This document shows positions 30-64,000 of a stretch of 64,000 nucleotides of DNA, piece after piece. The first letter of the stretch is position 1, and every line of letters starts with the position of its first letter. A program made the translations under genes and the position numbers. Location: contig JANJUB010000073.1 in NCBI GenBank assembly GCA_024710805.1, positions 38,713 to 102,712 of the forward strand, read 5' to 3'. Under the pieces are notes generated by a model. The model worked only from the letters and a program-made list of their open reading frames with translations. It made no database searches and had not been told where the DNA came from. Origin of the DNA: Fimbriimonadaceae bacterium. Lineage in GTDB: Bacteria > Armatimonadota > Fimbriimonadia > Fimbriimonadales > Fimbriimonadaceae.

Positions 30-446
30 CTATCTTCTGCCGTGCACATCGACAGCCTCACGGAGACGCTCGACGTCCGGTTCAAGGATCCAACCTCCAT
101 TGCCCATAAGGAACGCACAAGCCCGCTCGACCCGATCCTTTGCGGGTCCCCACTCATCTTCATAGCCATGCATGAAGCACCGGCTCTCATCGGGGTCGGC
201 AAGTAGATTCAGGGGGATACTCTCAAATGGAATGCCGTAGAGTTGACAGCCCATCCAATCTGGGCCTGCGTCCACGCTCACTCCCACATCCAACTGCAGG
301 TAGTCGAGCGGGCGCTCCCAGTAAGCGTACAGGACCGCGTTTCCCTTGTGTCCGAACATGTGCGTGAACATCGGATGGTGCTTGCATTGGACGGTAAAGC
401 CCTGTTCTTCGAGCAGATTCTTCAAAGGCAGCAGGGGGGAGTTCAT
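30..446 (-). CDS. small hypothetical protein, paralogue of the gene at 63454-63861
   Basis: Encodes about 138 residues starting at MNSPLLPLKN. The longer ORF start at 527 is rejected because its extra N-terminus is a translated dispersed repeat (GAGAIVPRN). The protein aligns along its whole length with the 135-aa protein at 63454-63861: LLEEQGFTVQ versus LLRQHGFTVQ, YLQLDVG versus YLQVEAG, CQLYGIPFE versus TQLYGVQFE, and a shared RVERACAFL/AVERVCNFL block near the end. No signal peptide or membrane segment is visible. The family is not recognised. Because the paralogue sits between YD/RHS gene ends, an immunity-like role is possible, but this is inference only. Confidence 0.6.
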   Translation of the reverse strand: MNSPLLPLKNLLEEQGFTVQCKHHPMFTHMFGHKGNAVLYAYWERPLDYLQLDVGVSVDAGPDWMGCQLYGIPFESIPLNLLADPDESRCFMHGYEDEWGPAKDRVERACAFLMGNGGWILEPDVERLREAVDVHGRR

Positions 447-477: not shown

Positions 478-562
478 TTGCGCGGCACGATCGCACCCGC
501 GCCCATCGTGACCTGGTCCTCGATCACTCAAGCGCTGTAAAACACCCCCGCGCGCCTCGTGC
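478..562. repeat. two adjacent copies of the GC-rich dispersed repeat (same as the fliK array)
   Basis: The stretch TTGCGCGGCACGATCGCA at 478-495 matches unit 6 of the fliK array with one mismatch in the first 23 bases, and CCCCCGCGCGCCTCGTG at 545-561 is identical to unit 4. It lies upstream of the minus-strand gene and before the symporter gene, outside any likely coding region. Confidence 0.7.
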
Positions 563-600: not shown

Positions 601-2028
601 ATGGTAGGCGTGGTTCAACTCGCACCGCTCGACCTGGCCATCGTAGGCGTGTTTCTCGCCGCGTTGTTGGGGCTGGGGCTGTCGGCGCGTTTGCGGAGCC
701 AGGACGCGGTTGGATTCATTGCCGCCGGGCGGGCACTCACCCTGCCGATGTTCGTCGCCACACTCGTGTGCACGTGGTACGGCGGCATCCTCGGCATGGG
801 CGAGTCGGTGAGCTACTTCGGCCTCGGCACGTGGCTACTGCTCGGGCTTCCCTACTACGTGTTCGCCGCGATCTATGTGTGGCGGCTTGCCGGTCGGGTG
901 CGGGAGTCGGACCAGATTTCCATCCCCGAACGCTTGCGGTTGCGCTACGGTAACGGCGTCGCCCGGGCCGGGGCGGGGTTGCTGTTCGCGCTCGGCGCCC
1001 CCTCAGCGCATGTCGTCATGCTGGGAACGCTGGTGCAGGTGCTGACGGGGTGGTCGTGGCCGATCAGCCTCGCCGTCGGTCTGCTGTTCGGACTGTCGTT
1101 TTTGATGAAGGGCGGACTGCTCGCCGACGTGCGGGTGTCGGTGCTGTCGTTCGTGGCCATGTATGCGGGGTTCGGAGCGATCCTCATCTACTGCCTCACC
1201 CAGATGTCTTGGGGCGAGGCGGTTGCCAAGCTGCCTTCTCCCGAGATGCAGACCTTCACGGGGGGCCAGGGCCCGATTTCGATCCTCAGCTTCTTCCTAT
1301 TGGGCGCATGGACGCTGATCGACCCCGGATTCCACCAGCGCGTGGCGAGCGCGGGATCGGTCGATGTCGCGCGTCGCGGGCTTATCGTCTCGATCTTCTG
1401 CTGGATGGTGTTCGACCTGCTCTCGATCGGCACCGGCGTGTACGCGATGGCGATGCTCACCGAGGTGCCTGGGAACTTGGTCGCGATCTACCCCTTGTTT
1501 GGAAATCAAGTCCTTCCTGATGGGCTCAAGGCGCTGTTCCTGTGCGGGATGACGGGCACGATCGTCTCCGCGCTCGTTGGCTATGCGCTCGTCAGCGGAT
1601 CGACGCTCGGGCGCGATCTGTGGTCGGACGGGCGGGACGACGCGAAGACGATGTTGAGGGTGCGCATCGGCATCGCAATCGGCGGCCTAGTCGCGTACCT
1701 GCTGGGGCTGGCGATCCCCAGCGTGAAGGACCTTTGGTACAGCTGGGGGGGCTTGACGGTGGGCTCGCTGCTCATTCCCACGCTCTTGGCCTACGACCGG
1801 CTGTGGAAGTCGAGGCTTACTTCGGGTTGGATGCTCGCTTCCCTGCTCGCCGGCGCGTTCGTCGGGGGTGGGTTGCTGGCTTATGGGGTCAGGATCGGCA
1901 ACCCGTTTCTGCTGGTGGAATGGGCTGGCCAGTCGTTCAGCATCGGCACGCTGTTGCCGAGCCTGATCGCGAGCCTTGTCGTGGTGGGAATGGGAGAGAT
2001 GGCTGCGCGAGGACGCCCGACGATCTAG
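601..2028 (+). CDS. sodium:solute symporter family transporter
   Basis: A polytopic membrane protein of about 475 residues with 12-13 hydrophobic segments spread along its length. The early AAGRALTLPMFVATLVCTWY segment and the following GxxG-rich helices are typical of the SSS (solute:sodium symporter) family, which couples uptake of sugars, amino acids, urea or organic acids to the sodium gradient. The substrate cannot be told from the sequence. The ORF opens at 559, but the ATG at 601 gives MVGVVQLAPLDLAIVGVF, which starts just before the first helix and is preferred. The next gene starts 68 bp downstream with its own promoter-like site. Confidence 0.85.
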   Translation: MVGVVQLAPLDLAIVGVFLAALLGLGLSARLRSQDAVGFIAAGRALTLPMFVATLVCTWYGGILGMGESVSYFGLGTWLLLGLPYYVFAAIYVWRLAGRVRESDQISIPERLRLRYGNGVARAGAGLLFALGAPSAHVVMLGTLVQVLTGWSWPISLAVGLLFGLSFLMKGGLLADVRVSVLSFVAMYAGFGAILIYCLTQMSWGEAVAKLPSPEMQTFTGGQGPISILSFFLLGAWTLIDPGFHQRVASAGSVDVARRGLIVSIFCWMVFDLLSIGTGVYAMAMLTEVPGNLVAIYPLFGNQVLPDGLKALFLCGMTGTIVSALVGYALVSGSTLGRDLWSDGRDDAKTMLRVRIGIAIGGLVAYLLGLAIPSVKDLWYSWGGLTVGSLLIPTLLAYDRLWKSRLTSGWMLASLLAGAFVGGGLLAYGVRIGNPFLLVEWAGQSFSIGTLLPSLIASLVVVGMGEMAARGRPTI

Positions 2029-4496: not shown

Positions 4497-5591
4497 CTAC
4501 TTGGGAGGCAAGATCGTCACCGCACCAATGCCCGGCTTGATGAGCCACCAGCCACGGCTCTTCTTGAGGACGTCCGCGCCGCGGACCGATCCTCGGCCCA
4601 CCGGAACCCAAAGCTGCTTTCGTAGGTTCGGCGAAAGCTCGAGCACGATGCCTGTGCCGTAGTTCTCCACGGTTCGAATCACGCCTTCGGCAAAGTCCTT
4701 CGCCTGAGTCGATCCGGTGTCGCGCAACATTGCTGCATACACCCGAGGCGGGAAGATCTGGTCGAGCAGCAGGTTCAATCCGATGTACGCATCCATCGCC
4801 GCCGCACCCGTGCCTTCGAGGAGTCCGAATTGGGGACCCTCGTCGGCAGTCTTCTGTACGAGCGGATCGACGTGGACCTTGACCCACGCGTCGAGTTGTT
4901 CGAGGGTGGCATCCATGGCATCGATCGGCTCGATGCGCTTCGCCTTCATCTCATCGCGAAGGTAGCGCATGTACATCTTCTCGCCGAGATAGCCGTTGCC
5001 CCAATCCTCAGGTTCCTTGAAGCCACCCACGGCGGGAAGCGTTGCATGGCCGTACTCGTGGGCTATCTCGCGGGCCATCTCAACCGGATTCTTGAAGCTG
5101 TTCAGGTCGTAGATGTAGATCGTGTTAACTCTCTTGACGCCGGTCGGATCGACATCTTCGTCGAACAACTGCTCGCCGCCCGGGTCTCCACCCCAGCAGA
5201 GATACACGTCCACCGTGCCGTTGTTGTAAACCTTGGCGTGCTCCAGCGAGAAGCGAATGGCGTTGTTCTCCCACAGGCGAAGCAGCATTCGCACGACCTT
5301 GGGTGCCTTATCGTTTTCTGCTTTGCGCTCCTGCGAGAACACCCGGAATCGAGCCTCGAAGGGCTCCTTGTTCGCTCCGGATCGCCGCGCGAGTCCACCG
5401 ACGACCCACTCAAACAACAGAGGCGCGGGCGGATCGCCGAACTTCTTGGGGCTCGACTTCGGCGTGCTCATCTTCTCGTCTCGGATGAAGATCGCGAGCC
5501 GGGTCGTCGGCTTCTCGGGGTCGCCCACGTAGAAAACGCGCGAGGCGGCTTGGTCTTGTATCCAAGCCGAAGCGAGGAGGAGGCTCAGCAC
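4497..5591 (-). CDS. secreted protein with an HEXXH zinc-protease-like motif
   Basis: 364 residues. A short hydrophobic N-terminus (MLSLLLASAWIQDQAA) looks like a weak signal peptide. Around residue 185 the segment MAREIAHEYGHATLPAVGG contains HEYGH, the zinc-binding HEXXH motif of metallopeptidases, followed by a Gly-rich stretch. No known family is recognised. It is the last gene of a three-gene run (DUF2993 protein, trxB, this gene), starting one base after the trxB stop codon. The third zinc ligand is not identified, so protease activity is inference. Confidence 0.65.
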   Translation of the reverse strand: MLSLLLASAWIQDQAASRVFYVGDPEKPTTRLAIFIRDEKMSTPKSSPKKFGDPPAPLLFEWVVGGLARRSGANKEPFEARFRVFSQERKAENDKAPKVVRMLLRLWENNAIRFSLEHAKVYNNGTVDVYLCWGGDPGGEQLFDEDVDPTGVKRVNTIYIYDLNSFKNPVEMAREIAHEYGHATLPAVGGFKEPEDWGNGYLGEKMYMRYLRDEMKAKRIEPIDAMDATLEQLDAWVKVHVDPLVQKTADEGPQFGLLEGTGAAAMDAYIGLNLLLDQIFPPRVYAAMLRDTGSTQAKDFAEGVIRTVENYGTGIVLELSPNLRKQLWVPVGRGSVRGADVLKKSRGWWLIKPGIGAVTILPPK

Positions 5592-5592
5592 G

Positions 5593-6534
5593 TTAGTGGC
5601 CCTCCGCCTCGAGGAATCGTTCAGCCTCGATCGCGGCCATGCATCCCGTGCCGGCCGCCGTCACGGCTTGCCGGTAGACGCTGTCCGCGACGTCACCGGC
5701 GACGAAGACTCCGGGGATCGCGGTCTTCGCTGTACCCGGAACGGGCTTGAGATAGCCGAGATCGTCGACTTCGAGGATGCCTCGGAAGAGCTCACTGTTG
5801 GGCTTATGACCGATGGCGATAAACACGCCGTCAAGGGGAAGTTCTCGCGTCTCGCCCGTCACGGTGTCCTTGAGACGAACACCGGTGACGTGCTTAGCCG
5901 GCTGGTCTTTGCCGAGGATCTCGTCGATCGCCGAGTTCCAGATCACTTCGATCTTCTCGTTGGCAAGCACGCGGTCCTGCATGACTTTACTGGCCCGGAA
6001 CTGGTCGCGGCGGTGAATCACGTACACCTTGGACGCATGGCGGGTGAGGTAGTTAGCCTCTTCCATCGCGGTGTCTCCACCACCCACGACCGCCACGGTC
6101 TTGCCGCGGAAGAAGAAGCCGTCGCAGGTGGCGCATGCGCTCACGCCGTGACCGCCATAGGTCACTTCGGATTCCAGACCGAGCCACTTCGCCTCGGCAC
6201 CGGTTGCGATGATCACCGTGCGGGCATGATGCTCGGTGTCGCCCGTCCAAACGCGGAAGGGTCGCTGCGAAAAATCGACCTTGGTGACCATGTCGAACAC
6301 GACCTCGGAACCAAAGCGCTCGCACTGCTTGCGGAAGAGCTCCATCAGATCGGGACCCATCACTCCATCCGGAAATCCCGGATAGTTCTCGACGTCCGTG
6401 GTGATCATCAGCTGCCCGCCGGGTTGCGCGCCAGCGAAGATAATCGGGTTCAAACTGGCACGCGCGGCATAGAGCGCGGCGGTGTAGCCCGCGGGGCCAG
6501 AGCCAATGATGATGACGTTGTGAAGGGTCGCCAT
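5593..6534 (-). CDS. trxB: thioredoxin reductase
   Basis: 313 residues starting at [20 protein letters not shown]; the extra 38 codons of the ORF are rejected because the FAD-binding GxGPAG motif should lie near the N-terminus. The redox-active CATCDG motif is at about residue 135-140, followed by the NADPH-binding GGGDTAMEE motif. The C-terminal [10 protein letters not shown] motif contacts FAD. Reduces thioredoxin with NADPH in the cytoplasm. It lies 13 bp downstream of the DUF2993 gene and directly upstream of the HEXXH gene, so the three are probably cotranscribed. No thioredoxin gene is in the window. Confidence 0.96.
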
Positions 6535-60200: not shown

Positions 60201-60500
60201 GCCAACACGGTGGACGCCGATTCGTTCTCGTTCGACGTGCCGATCATGAAGCTCGACGAATGGATGGAGGGTCAAGAGGGCGACGACATCGCCGACGACC
60301 TGCTCTTCAAGACGCGCCTGCTCGAAGATCTTCCTGCCGTCCCCGAGGAAGAGGATGAACCGCTTCGATCGGGCCGGCGCAGGAAACGACGTCGCCGCGG
60401 AGGCAGCGAGGAGACAGCTGGACGCCGACGCGATGGCGAGGCGGTCCAAGTGGATGCCGACCTCGGAATGAGCGTCGTGTTCCGTAGGCGAGACACATGA
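57276..60500 (+). CDS. GH42-like protein with long Arg/Lys/Pro-rich tails
   Basis: 1074 residues from MPRRKNVTPDL. Residues 1-240 are low complexity, alternating basic clusters (RSRKPKVE, RTRRAAKPKAE) and acidic stretches, with GRRRRRGRGG near 170 like the RNA-binding tails of RNase E/G. Residues 255-960 resemble GH42 beta-galactosidase architecture: PIAFFGDARNE, ILGVHLDRGEWFYPDG, an FVAGPPSYRNREPGG segment, and a trimerisation-like domain. The C-terminus is again acidic then RRRKRRRRGG. No signal peptide. It overlaps both HAD and era (ATGA), so it is in their operon. An odd fusion; function unknown. Confidence 0.65.
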   Translation: MPRRKNVTPDLSTPAETTAPTETKSTRSRKPKVETPAAEVPVVETPKPRTRRAAKPKAEPEPVVVEAKAPRSRKPKVEADAEPATVVEESKPARSRRGRAKVEEAPVAEAVAEPKPSRARTRTRKPTAADAALEALVAEADVAPIQWRPRTIKEKPAPTESQAARTDEPRGRRRRRGRGGSAQGETLNLAPTTEAAAEAPVTEEAVEDGEAPRGRRRRGGRRSDAKVEPKSEPTPVVAVVAAPEPPAIPMRPSIVIPPDAPQVILREGLPTLVRNGRVYPPIAFFGDARNETKAKTVIDEIRMAGEAGVHLHSLTIDFEVDSDTVGDHVALAGYLLKKVLEADPEAQVFFRVVFAAPKGWTERYPGAKYTMATGEVAEPSVCDDRFWSDAQECLERFVRQLRLLPQKDSILGVHLDRGEWFYPDGVGYDTSRAARDKFQDWARARYRNDIVSLRAAWFNGSAEFGRLEVPKYERPTDDKFVRANRQERSWVDYHLFLSDAAVNRISDLAYTVKEASDGYFVVGVSYGYTFEWSHPASGHLSLGKLLRMREIDFVAGPPSYRNREPGGAASFPGPVDSFALNGKLFLSEEDYKTSLGSGYDPDDFNPMIKTPQALESVHWRGIGAALAHGSGVTWMDLWGNGWLKTPSAWQRAEVARETMVLRMASPETPADVAVFIDERSLAYLVDQKGFNLLVQNVRESVMRSGMSAAFYLLSDLQHRETFPESKLYVFLNAWDVRPELRAAIKSRLQRGNKVLFWVYTAGLFDSGRESLERAREVTGIALKPQPFHSKTGTTIVNRRHPLCEVFEDKTNVGGAHLEPSYFAIPEDGIVLGEYTQTGLPSFVLREFRSETDPASTWKSVFLGEPIVTPSLLRTLGEMAGAHVWSFTEDVVHVRAPFLTVHCTGTGPRTITLPAKWSAYSLTNREWVSTDATSLRFTATDGSTHAFLVGVRDDLEHLLNLDPTAMLKIDKLPERDANTVDADSFSFDVPIMKLDEWMEGQEGDDIADDLLFKTRLLEDLPAVPEEEDEPLRSGRRRKRRRRGGSEETAGRRRDGEAVQVDADLGMSVVFRRRDT

Positions 60501-61378
60501 GCCACCGTTTCGGATACGTCGCGCTGATCGGCCAGCCCAACGTGGGCAAGAGCACCTTGCTCAATGCCCTCGTGGGGCAGAAGGTGTCGATCGTCAGCGA
60601 TAAAGCACAGACCACGCGCCGCAACGTCATCGGCGTCATGCAGGGCGAGGGATTCCAGATCGCCTTCATCGACACGCCCGGCGTTCACGAGCCGCACACC
60701 GTGCTGGGCAAAACCATGCTCGAGGCGGCGCGAACGGGGCTCAGCGGGGTCGACCTTACAGTGGTCGTCGTCGATATCAGCCGACGGCCGAACGAAGCGG
60801 ACAAGCGAATCGCGAAGATGGTAGGCGATGCGCCAAAGATCCTGGCGATGAACAAGATGGATCGGTTGCGCGCCGAGATGGTCGTTCCGCACACCGAAGC
60901 GTACTGCCAGTTATTCGGCACCGAGGACTACATGATGACCACCGCGACCCAAGGGGTTAACCTGGACAAGCTGGTCGAGATGATCGTCGAGCGGCTGGAA
61001 GAAGGCGAGCCGGAGTTCGACTCCGAGACCTACACCGACCAGACCGTGCGGTTTATGGCCGCCGAGCTGATCCGAGAGAAGGTGCTCGTCGCGACCCGAC
61101 AGGAAGTCCCCCACGCCTGCGCGGTGCACATTCGCGAGTGGGAAGAGGAAGAGGGACGGGTAACGATTTACGCGGACATCTTGGTGGAGAAGGATGGGCA
61201 GAAGGCGATCCTCATCGGCAACAAGGGCCAGTTCATCAAGACGATTGGAACCCAAGCCCGGCTGGAAATCGCGGAGCTGATCGGGAAGCCGGTGCACCTA
61301 GACCTGCACATCAAGGTCCGCCCGGACTGGCGGCAAAGCCCGCGCACGATTCGAGAGTTGCAAGAAGAGACAGGGTAA
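60497..61378 (+). CDS. era: GTPase Era
   Basis: 293 residues. G1 is GQPNVGKST, G2 around KAQTTRRNVIG, G3 DTPG, G4 NKMD; the C-terminal KH domain has ILVEKDGQKAILIGNKGQFIKTIG. Era binds 16S rRNA near its 3' end and promotes 30S maturation. The ATG overlaps the stop codon of the GH42-like gene, so translation is coupled. Confidence 0.96.
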   Translation: MSHRFGYVALIGQPNVGKSTLLNALVGQKVSIVSDKAQTTRRNVIGVMQGEGFQIAFIDTPGVHEPHTVLGKTMLEAARTGLSGVDLTVVVVDISRRPNEADKRIAKMVGDAPKILAMNKMDRLRAEMVVPHTEAYCQLFGTEDYMMTTATQGVNLDKLVEMIVERLEEGEPEFDSETYTDQTVRFMAAELIREKVLVATRQEVPHACAVHIREWEEEEGRVTIYADILVEKDGQKAILIGNKGQFIKTIGTQARLEIAELIGKPVHLDLHIKVRPDWRQSPRTIRELQEETG

Positions 61379-62076: not shown

Positions 62077-62102
62077 CTTAACTTGATGGACTGACCTGTA
62101 GG

Positions 62103-62142
62103 CGCAGGTTTCGAGTCTGAGCGGAGCGAAAGACGAGGCCCT
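62103..62142. repeat. 40-bp direct repeat, copy 1
   Basis: CGCAGGTTTCGAGTCTGAGC begins a 40-base element that matches 62592-62631 at 36 of 40 positions. The two copies bracket the small gene at 62205-62552. Confidence 0.8.
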
Positions 62143-62204: not shown

Positions 62205-62552
62205 CTACCACGCGAGGTAGTACTCGTTGATCCGTCTGCCGCATCCACCTTGCTGCACGCGGCGATTGGACTGACGCGGCACTTGCTGGCCGGGCTTGTT
62301 GCCGGTCCACACGAAGGCATCGATCTCGGTCAGCTTCCACTCATCATCGCGCACCAGTTTCGTCTCGCCCGGAATCAAGCGAATCTTCTCACGAATGGGC
62401 AACCGCACCTCGATGGGCACGTCGCCGCTGTTCGTGACATAGACATCGACGAGAGGCGCTGAATCGCCCAGCATGGCGCTGGTCATGCCAATGCTATACA
62501 GCAGGAGCAAGACAACAAAGACCCAGCCAGCCGCCCGCTTTACGTCTGCCAT
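62205..62552 (-). CDS. small membrane-anchored protein
   Basis: 115 residues from MADVKRAAGW. One membrane segment (VFVVLLLLYSIGMTSAML, about 11-28), then a globular beta-rich part (DVYVTNSGDVPIEVRLPIREKIRLIPGETKLVRDDEWKLTEIDAFVW). No family recognised. The tracked start 30 codons earlier lies within the 40-bp direct repeat and is rejected. The gene sits between two direct repeats and so may be a cassette. Confidence 0.55.
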   Translation of the reverse strand: MADVKRAAGWVFVVLLLLYSIGMTSAMLGDSAPLVDVYVTNSGDVPIEVRLPIREKIRLIPGETKLVRDDEWKLTEIDAFVWTGNKPGQQVPRQSNRRVQQGGCGRRINEYYLAW

Positions 62553-62591
62553 GAAGGATAAGACGCACGGGCACCGCACGTTGGTTGAAGA

Positions 62592-62631
62592 CGCAGGTTT
62601 CGAGCCCGAGCGGAGCGAAGGACGAGCCCCT
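62592..62631. repeat. 40-bp direct repeat, copy 2
   Basis: CGCAGGTTTCGAGCCCGAGC begins the second copy, 489 bases from the first and in the same orientation. Confidence 0.8.
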
Positions 62632-62644
62632 CCGGTCTTCATAG

Positions 62645-62851
62645 TTATGACTCGTCCTCCGCTTCACTCTTGCTCAATACCCAGAGTCCAACACCGGCCA
62701 GGATAAACAGGAAGCCCGCGACGCGCCCCGATGTGCCCTCCAGACGCGAGAGTCCCGGCACAAAGGTGAACCAGAGGGAAGCACCCGTGACGAGTGCATA
62801 AACTCCCCCAGCGATCCACATTGTGCCAAACAAACGAGTAATGCAACTCAT
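62645..62851 (-). CDS. small two-helix membrane protein
   Basis: 68 residues with two hydrophobic segments (MWIAGGVYALVTGASLWFTFVP and VAGFLFILAGVGLWVL) and an acidic end (SKSEAEDES). No family recognised. Lies between two other small membrane protein genes on the same strand, after the YD gene fragments; it could be an immunity-type or simply hypothetical protein. Confidence 0.5.
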   Translation of the reverse strand: MSCITRLFGTMWIAGGVYALVTGASLWFTFVPGLSRLEGTSGRVAGFLFILAGVGLWVLSKSEAEDES

Positions 62852-62910: not shown

Positions 62911-63255
62911 CTAGCTAGAATGGTCATCGGTGAGTGACCGGATTCTCCCTTGCTCTCTTCTTAGCATAGCCAATGATAAGCGATATAAAGCCACGAAGAC
63001 GATCAGGCCAATGAAGATTACGGCTGGCACCTTGACGGTCGACTCAAGCACCTTATCTAAGACGATGGACACGGCAATCACACTCGCTCCTCCGCGTGCC
63101 AACGACGACATTGTGATCGCCTCATCATCGGACAGGTCACGTCTGCCAATCAGTTGTTTGCTCGCGAAGAACTTGCCCATCCTTGGTGTGTAGAGCAACC
63201 ATCCAACAACCAAGAACAAAGTCGCCGCGATCAGATCGTTGGTGTTTTGCTTCAC
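62911..63255 (-). CDS. small membrane protein coupled to a YD-repeat gene end
   Basis: 114 residues from GTG 63255 (VKQNTNDLIAATLFLVVGWLLY). Hydrophobic segments at about residues 8-24, 50-66 and 75-95, and a hydrophilic C-terminus (RREQGRIRSLTDDHSS). The GTG overlaps the TGA of the YD fragment (GTGA), as in a toxin-immunity pair where the small protein follows the toxin. No family recognised. Confidence 0.5.
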   Translation of the reverse strand: MKQNTNDLIAATLFLVVGWLLYTPRMGKFFASKQLIGRRDLSDDEAITMSSLARGGASVIAVSIVLDKVLESTVKVPAVIFIGLIVFVALYRLSLAMLRREQGRIRSLTDDHSS

Positions 63256-63356
63256 GGGAGACTCCGTCTCCCTTCCCGCCACACTCGCAGTGTGTCGGAC
63301 TCTAACGTCTTGGGCGGCACTCCACCCAACGACACCTGGGTCAGCTTGACGTCGCA
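63252..63356. repeat. 105-bp direct repeat, copy A, with two inverted repeats
   Basis: Matches 63896-64000 over its whole length at the same spacing. It contains GGGAGACTCCGTCTCCC at 63256-63272 and CACACTCGCAGTGTG next to it, two perfect hairpins. Confidence 0.9.
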
Positions 63357-63455
63357 GTCGACGGTGTACGTCTCGGTCATCCCATTCACCGTCCGCGATG
63401 GGTGATTTCCGTTCGCCTCATACGTAAACGACGCCGAATACCCGTTGCGGGATTC
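63252..63455 (-). pseudogene. YD/RHS-repeat gene end (displaced C-terminal fragment)
   Basis: Reads SRNGYSASFTYEANGNHPSRTVNGMTETYTVDCDVKLTQVSLGG and stops shortly after. TYEANGN...SRTVNGxTxTYT is the YD-repeat pattern of RHS/teneurin-type proteins, which often carry variable toxin ends. There is no start codon of its own before the YD part; upstream lies the 135-residue gene in another frame. Best read as an orphan end left by recombination or duplication. Confidence 0.65.
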
Positions 63456-63861
63456 ACCGGCAATGAGCTTCGAGTGCATCGGATATGCGTTCAATGTCTG
63501 GCGCGAGTAGCCATGCTTCGCTTTCAAGGAAGTTGCACACGCGCTCGACGGCCGAGAAAGGTTCGACAACGTCACCAAACGAGCCAGCCAGACTTGACGG
63601 GTCACTTGCGATAACCTGTAAGGGACAGGTCTCGAACTGTACACCATAGAGCTGGGTGCCGCGCCAGCCCGCAGTCGCTGCTAAGGTGAGTCCTGCTTCA
63701 ACTTGTAGATACGGTGGTGGATAGTCATACAGCGCGAAGATGCATGCTGAGTTCTTCACAGCAAGGATCTTATGTGACCGATGGTTGGTCACTGTTCCCT
63801 GAACCGTGAAGCCATGTTGCCTTAAGAGGGAGATAAGCGAGTTCATTGGGGAGTGATTCAT
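63454..63861 (-). CDS. small hypothetical protein between two YD/RHS gene ends
   Basis: 135 residues (MNHSPMNSLISLLRQHGFTVQG). A full-length paralogue of the gene at 30-446. It starts 34 bases after the stop codon of the upstream YD gene end and finishes at the edge of the downstream YD fragment. This arrangement, YD end followed by a small unrelated gene, is the usual layout of RHS toxins with immunity genes, so an immunity role is possible; the protein family is not recognised. Confidence 0.6.
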   Translation of the reverse strand: MNHSPMNSLISLLRQHGFTVQGTVTNHRSHKILAVKNSACIFALYDYPPPYLQVEAGLTLAATAGWRGTQLYGVQFETCPLQVIASDPSSLAGSFGDVVEPFSAVERVCNFLESEAWLLAPDIERISDALEAHCR

Positions 63862-63895
63862 AGGTCATCAAGGCTCCATACCGACCTAGGCGTTT

Positions 63896-64000
63896 TCACG
63901 GGAGACTCCGTCTCCCTTCCCGCCACCCTCGCAGTGTGGCGGACTCTAACGTCTTGCTGGCAACGCCACCCAACGACACCTGGGTCAGCTTGACGCCGCA
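63896..64000 (-). CDS. 3' end of a YD/RHS-repeat gene, truncated by the window edge
   Basis: Reads CGVKLTQVSLGGVASKTLES and continues to a TGA at 63896-63898. It is the second copy of the 105-bp element and presumably the end of a larger YD-repeat gene that begins beyond position 64000. Ends with the same REGRRSLP peptide as the downstream fragment. Confidence 0.6.
   Translation of the reverse strand, partial: CGVKLTQVSLGGVASKTLESATLRGWREGRRSLP

Follow-up and report, generated by a model that had tools for sequence, protein, structure and literature searches.

A probable toxin-less array of orphan RHS immunity genes, spaced by YD stubs and REP hairpins, at a contig end in a Fimbriimonadaceae genome

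INTRODUCTION

Why would a short piece of RHS/YD coding sequence occur twice in quick succession, each time with a different small gene directly behind it? The question is posed by the right-hand end of the window, by which we mean the whole 64,000-nucleotide stretch analyzed here (G000:C194:38713-102712, G000 being the genome and C194 the contig, whose last base is window position 64000). The first-pass annotation described a 105-bp element encoding the end of a YD-repeat protein and suggested displaced RHS toxin tips with immunity genes, possibly immunity-only remnants. Displacement has been established or proposed as the origin of both orphan RHS/CDI modules and orphan immunity arrays, and the immunity genes may be retained as protection against kin (PMC3150448, PMC3967940, PMC5361080). 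The immunity-only suggestion is also the best reading of the follow-up analysis: with a probability of about 0.7, we consider the locus a displaced, toxin-less RHS orphan-immunity array, with cassettes cut back at REP/RAYT elements.

THE ARRAY AND ITS CONTINUATION

Two minus-strand copies, at 63251-63356 and 63895-64000, do lie 644 bp apart (start to start) and are 92% identical (BLAST E ~1e-38). The length of 105 bp reflects only the part visible before the contig ends; the full repeat is a unit of ~206 bp, as seen when window 63251-63456 is aligned with L015:36-241 on contig C74. How does C74 relate to C194? In a contig-end comparison, its first 141 bases proved identical to window 63860-64000. 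This exact overlap, together with the same gene order on contig C5 of G001, a genome of the same genus, makes C74 the likely continuation of C194. A 141-bp overlap would fit the longest word of a de Bruijn assembler, in our estimation, and the repeat is probably what broke C194 at window 64000. The components are as follows.

62205-62552, minus strand: 115-aa ORF, flanked by a second, unrelated repeat
62645-62851, minus strand: 68-aa ORF, hydrophobic; possible further remnant, with a sub-threshold SdpI match
62911-63255, minus strand: 114-aa ORF, hydrophobic, membrane-type; putative orphan immunity gene with its GTG start at the REP edge
63255-63300, minus strand: REP copy 2, a double hairpin (REP model 65.6 bits; DNA fold -15.8 kcal/mol, z -4.5)
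63304-63456, minus strand: YD stub 2, RHS/YD coding fragment ESRNGYSAS...VPPKT; its first bases are the TGA stop of the 135-aa gene
63454-63861, minus strand: 135-aa ORF, putative orphan immunity gene, with a stop codon that doubles as the opening TGA of YD stub 2
63899-63944, minus strand: REP copy 1 (REP model 66.1 bits; DNA fold -16.6 kcal/mol, z -4.3)
63948-64000, minus strand: 3' portion of YD stub 1, with the remainder assigned to C74, up to base 241 of L015, from the 141-bp overlap and synteny with G001:C5
L015:239-688 on C74: 149-aa gene, first in minus-strand order, upstream of YD stub 1
30-446, minus strand: 138-aa paralogue of the 135-aa protein (37-39% identity)
60497-61378, plus strand: era-type GTPase gene, outside the array; syntenic anchor with G001:C5

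Read along the minus strand, the array thus runs from the 149-aa gene through YD stub 1 and REP 1 to the 135-aa gene, YD stub 2, and REP 2, followed by the 114-aa gene and then the 68- and 115-aa ORFs. The small genes directly after the two copies were correctly described, including the GTGA overlap at the start of the 114-aa gene. A full RHS gene past 64000 was looked for, and C74 does not bear it out: the contig has only a single stub beside the 149-aa gene, and then Mu-like phage head genes.

The corresponding site in the second genome (G001:C5, JADZEW010000005.1) holds the Mu-like head genes, the 149-aa gene, a YD stub, a 195-aa gene, era, and a 1082-aa gene. This synteny lends independent support to the C194-C74 join. 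Could the repeat and the break nevertheless be chimeric joins made at the YD/REP repeat during assembly? The ends of C194, C74, C89, C113, and C13 all fall within RHS or REP sequence or close to it, as such an artifact would have it, but gene order agrees with that of the independent genome and the two copies differ by 8%, which leaves this explanation very improbable.

The Mu-like head genes that adjoin the array (L015:864-3948 on C74 and L075:3114-6189) comprise a protease/scaffold gene, the gene for a gpT major head protein, and a 134-aa gene. Their order is kept, with ~92% DNA identity, between the two species, which suggests an old or domesticated prophage segment. The G001 record itself (JADZEW010000005.1; L079) is titled “Methanoregulaceae archaeon isolate SJ84,” a label that looks wrong for a sequence that encodes era, Mu-like head genes, and close relatives of the bacterial G000 sequence.

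YD STUBS THAT END IN A REP HAIRPIN

The ~206-bp unit is a composite of ~153 to 156 bp of RHS/YD coding sequence and a double-hairpin REP of ~46 bp. Both stubs open with TGAATCCCGC, the TGA of which terminates the small gene in front, as the junction alignment makes plain. They share ~84-92% DNA identity with intact YD stretches of the same genome and genus; stub 2 is 87% identical to the intact YD ORF on C89, and it matches the C74 stub at ~92%. In a full Rhs protein, the stubs correspond to residues 819-881 (stub 2) and 824-878. Detached RHS/YD core fragments are therefore present at the locus, and the description of the element as YD sequence was sound. As the end of a YD protein it was not: homology to the intact ORF of C89 extends to AAGACGTT, and the GTCCGCCACACTGCGAGGGTGGCGGGAAGGGAGACGGAGTCTCCC double hairpin comes next. 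Since YD homology stops where the REP begins, what looks like a protein end arises where the YD frame continues into a hairpin and is no natural terminus. At the 3' edge of REP copy 2 stand a TGA in frame (63252-63254) and the GTG with which the 114-aa gene starts. Near-identical stubs, each starting at the preceding stop codon and each cut by a REP, thus separate the small genes in G000.

What is the REP? It is a GC-rich, multicopy palindrome whose hairpins fold with z scores of -4.3 to -6.2. A covariance model built from 14 copies, with sites counted at E<=1e-3, finds 18 distinct sites in G000, some of them within or fused to RHS coding sequence, and 11 in G001; it has no match in RHS loci from three other genera (L070-L074). 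On contig C2, a REP at 273-318 (minus strand) and another at 1027-1072 (plus strand) stand as inverted copies around a RAYT gene (345-968) for a full-length Y1 transposase. The C2 protein shares 95% identity with a G001 protein whose score clears the cutoff of NF047646, the NCBIfam model for REP-associated tyrosine transposases (80.9 against 80 bits). RAYT remnants, also set between REPs, occur on C89 and C16. Five of the 11 REP clusters in G000 fall within 1.5 kb of RHS sequence, giving a binomial P of 1e-8 to 1e-7 when RHS neighborhoods are taken, on our own estimate, as 0.8-1.2% of the genome; this value is a guide only, because REP copies may lack independence.

Might the whole unit be a mobile chimera, in which a REP took up 156 bp of a neighboring rhs gene and spread beside non-RHS genes? 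The identical end points of both copies, the dispersal of the REP half, and the full-length RAYT transposase gene in the genome (its family assigned via the G001 homologue) are what one would expect of such an element. Three observations speak against it. (i) The stub at the orthologous site in G001 starts at the same TGA and has no REP, so stub and REP arrived separately. (ii) Outside the array, neither G000 nor G001 has the 206-bp unit in full. (iii) The 135-aa protein ends where its 138-aa paralogue ends and is therefore probably not truncated by an insertion. We regard the chimera as quite unlikely. A simple genome-wide repeat was also considered and rejected; occurrence beside unrelated genes across the genome, which the first-pass annotation had named as grounds for abandoning its reading, applies to the REP half, and the YD part is not dispersed.

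THE SMALL GENES

If the array is indeed one of orphan immunity genes, what are the genes themselves? The libraries searched were Pfam, NCBIfam, PHROGs, PADLOC, PDB, phages, plasmids, GTDB contigs, and 291 genomes of the phylum, each small protein being compared with all or some of them. In these searches the 135-, 149-, and 114-aa proteins match no known family; apart from the window paralogue and the G001 orthologue, the sole match is a marginal one to the 114-aa protein in the phylum genomes. The last protein also has a weak, sub-threshold match to DUF1761. The 135-aa family thus has two members, both in G000; the 290 remaining genomes of the phylum contributed no others. Structure models built from two-row alignments (pLDDT 41 and 52) were too poor to compare. 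The genes adjoin stubs, and their immunity role is putative.

Some observations run against an immunity role: there is no immunity-family match, none of the small proteins was found beside a cognate toxin, and the 138-aa paralogue at 30-446, correctly recognized from the start, sits outside any RHS context, inspection of its flanks having revealed neither YD nor REP sequence. That paralogue is flanked in its non-RHS setting by a repeat, GCGCnGTAnAACACCCCnGCGCnCCTCGTG, and its inverse (window 532-561; L014 ~5450-5480 and 5632-5661). Another repeat, AGGTTTCGAGnCnGAGCGGAGCGAA, brackets the 115-aa ORF at 62097-62142 and 62586-62631; the two copies are 87% identical, and none is expected by chance.

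SELECTION AND THE AGE OF THE ARRAY

The 149-aa gene is 84% identical between G000 and G001, and the presence of both this gene and its stub at the orthologous site makes the pair older than the species split. The gene after the stub is wholly different in the two genomes. Comparison of G000 with G001 gives the 149-aa gene, the only small gene for which selection could be estimated (the 135- and 114-aa genes are without a close relative), a dN/dS of 0.41 (bootstrap 95% limits, 0.22-0.72). The intact YD sequence stands at 0.045 and the stubs at 0.3-0.7, with wide limits; for era, dN is 0.023 and dS is 0.47. Over the same 42 codons, the intact YD pair differs by 6 synonymous and no amino acid changes, while the stub pair differs by 6 synonymous and 8 amino acid changes (8/14 versus 0/6; Fisher P 0.04). 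The 149-aa gene is kept by purifying selection, and the stubs are relaxed and drifting.

These figures bear on the view that stubs, REPs, and small genes are all functionless, decaying RHS remains. Relaxed constraint on the stubs, their breakage by REPs, and the near-complete lack of relatives of the 135- and 114-aa proteins accord with decay of this sort. It does not account for a dN/dS of 0.41 with an upper bound of 0.72 in the 149-aa gene, or for small genes that remain intact ORFs next to decaying stubs, and fast-evolving immunity genes are likewise without relatives. Pure debris is, in our opinion, an unlikely description of the locus.

RHS CASSETTES ELSEWHERE IN THE GENUS

Are toxin-bearing cassettes found anywhere in these genomes? 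They are, and to that extent the proposed displaced-RHS layout stands, although no toxin tip is present at this locus. Two cassettes on contig C13 have an Rhs core (TIGR03696). In one, the ORF is 378 aa long, has an HHLVP tip, and precedes a 211-aa gene; in the other, a 292-aa ORF with Ntox50 (E 5e-24) is followed by a 110-aa gene. The C13 array meets REPs at both ends, one at C13:98-143 breaking the Rhs core after GPFG and one at C13:3418-3461 preceding YD sequence. On C89, the order is REP, RAYT remnant, REP, an 85-aa ORF in the REP frame, a 126-aa gene, and YD sequence; on C133, REPs occur with a 191-aa gene and a YD stub. Of the two genomes, only G001 has a full rhs gene, for a 1239-aa protein with orphan modules, and its locus is other than the array site; multimodule RHS arrays occur in other genera of the family as well.

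On G001:C8, a YD ORF (core and tip, with a 117-aa gene) begins <=3 bp from a REP beside a RAYT gene, and another REP comes after. This cassette between REPs (L065:6211-9361) has 87% DNA identity to the main rhs gene on G001:C1, as if it had moved whole. The orthologous site in G000, on C2, is likewise REP-RAYT-REP, and homology ends at about the REP edge. Beside it, L022:1-272 holds an apparent short C-terminal tail and then an ORF that opens with ATGA; this may be a further RHS cassette trimmed by a REP, together with its immunity gene, that the end of the contig truncates. As candidate toxin tails, the C89 85-aa ORF and the C2 ORF beside the REP match no family, and the former has only one plasmid match, at E = 1.

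HOW THE ARRAY MAY HAVE FORMED

On the orphan-immunity reading, the 149-, 135-, and 114-aa genes would be RHS immunity genes retained after loss of their toxin tips, and they would shield the cell from relatives that still deploy those tips. Toxin and core would have been removed through REP/RAYT insertion, recombination, or adjacent deletion at REP/RAYT and YD repeats. The ~206-bp stub-plus-REP units form direct repeats, so RecA could recombine them and in this way add or remove single small genes.

A bolder proposal is that REP/RAYT elements in this genus repeatedly trim and shuffle RHS cassettes, and that recurring stub-REP units make the locus an integron-like row of swappable immunity genes. 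Here, single-strand transposition or deletion at the hairpins would strip core and toxin and spare the downstream immunity gene. We hold this to be improbable.

COMPARISON WITH KNOWN SYSTEMS

Orphan immunity arrays are known, and loss of the toxin half with retention of the immunity half has so far been mostly inferred. At this locus and others like it, the cut points are visible, with a RAYT-type REP hairpin at the break in several RHS cassettes. The sister site, with no REP and a different second gene, adds to a concrete hypothesis of REP/RAYT-assisted trimming in a little-studied bacterial group. In a limited literature search, the RAYT papers made no mention of rhs, and no paper described an association of RAYT/REP with RHS cut points; with coverage of that extent, our claim to novelty is a modest one.

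Like the T6SS orphan immunity arrays of Vibrio cholerae (PMC5361080), the locus is a row of different orphan genes that may derive from displaced effectors and may protect against kin. The V. cholerae arrays stand behind T6SS clusters and have been inferred to reflect effector-immunity insertions in succession, whereas here the separators are YD stubs and REP hairpins and no secretion cluster is seen at the site. The orphan rhs-CT/rhsI and cdiA-CT/cdiI modules of Enterobacteriaceae (PMC3150448, PMC3967940) are similar in that displaced core fragments follow an immunity-type gene in tandem; start signals are usually missing from them, and disruption by transposable elements has been reported. 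They differ in keeping a toxin tip: here, neither the DPxGL region of the Rhs core nor a toxin tip lies between a stub and the next gene, and in each copy a REP terminates the core fragment. Since the tip was sought and is absent, the locus is not a complete orphan toxin/immunity module. Finally, the REPs resemble published REP/RAYT systems (PMC2817692) in their GC-rich palindrome and in the placement of a RAYT gene between two inverted REPs (C2 and G001:C8). Those systems have >100 mostly extragenic copies, whereas the ~18 sites described here are over-represented at RHS loci and lie in part within coding sequence.
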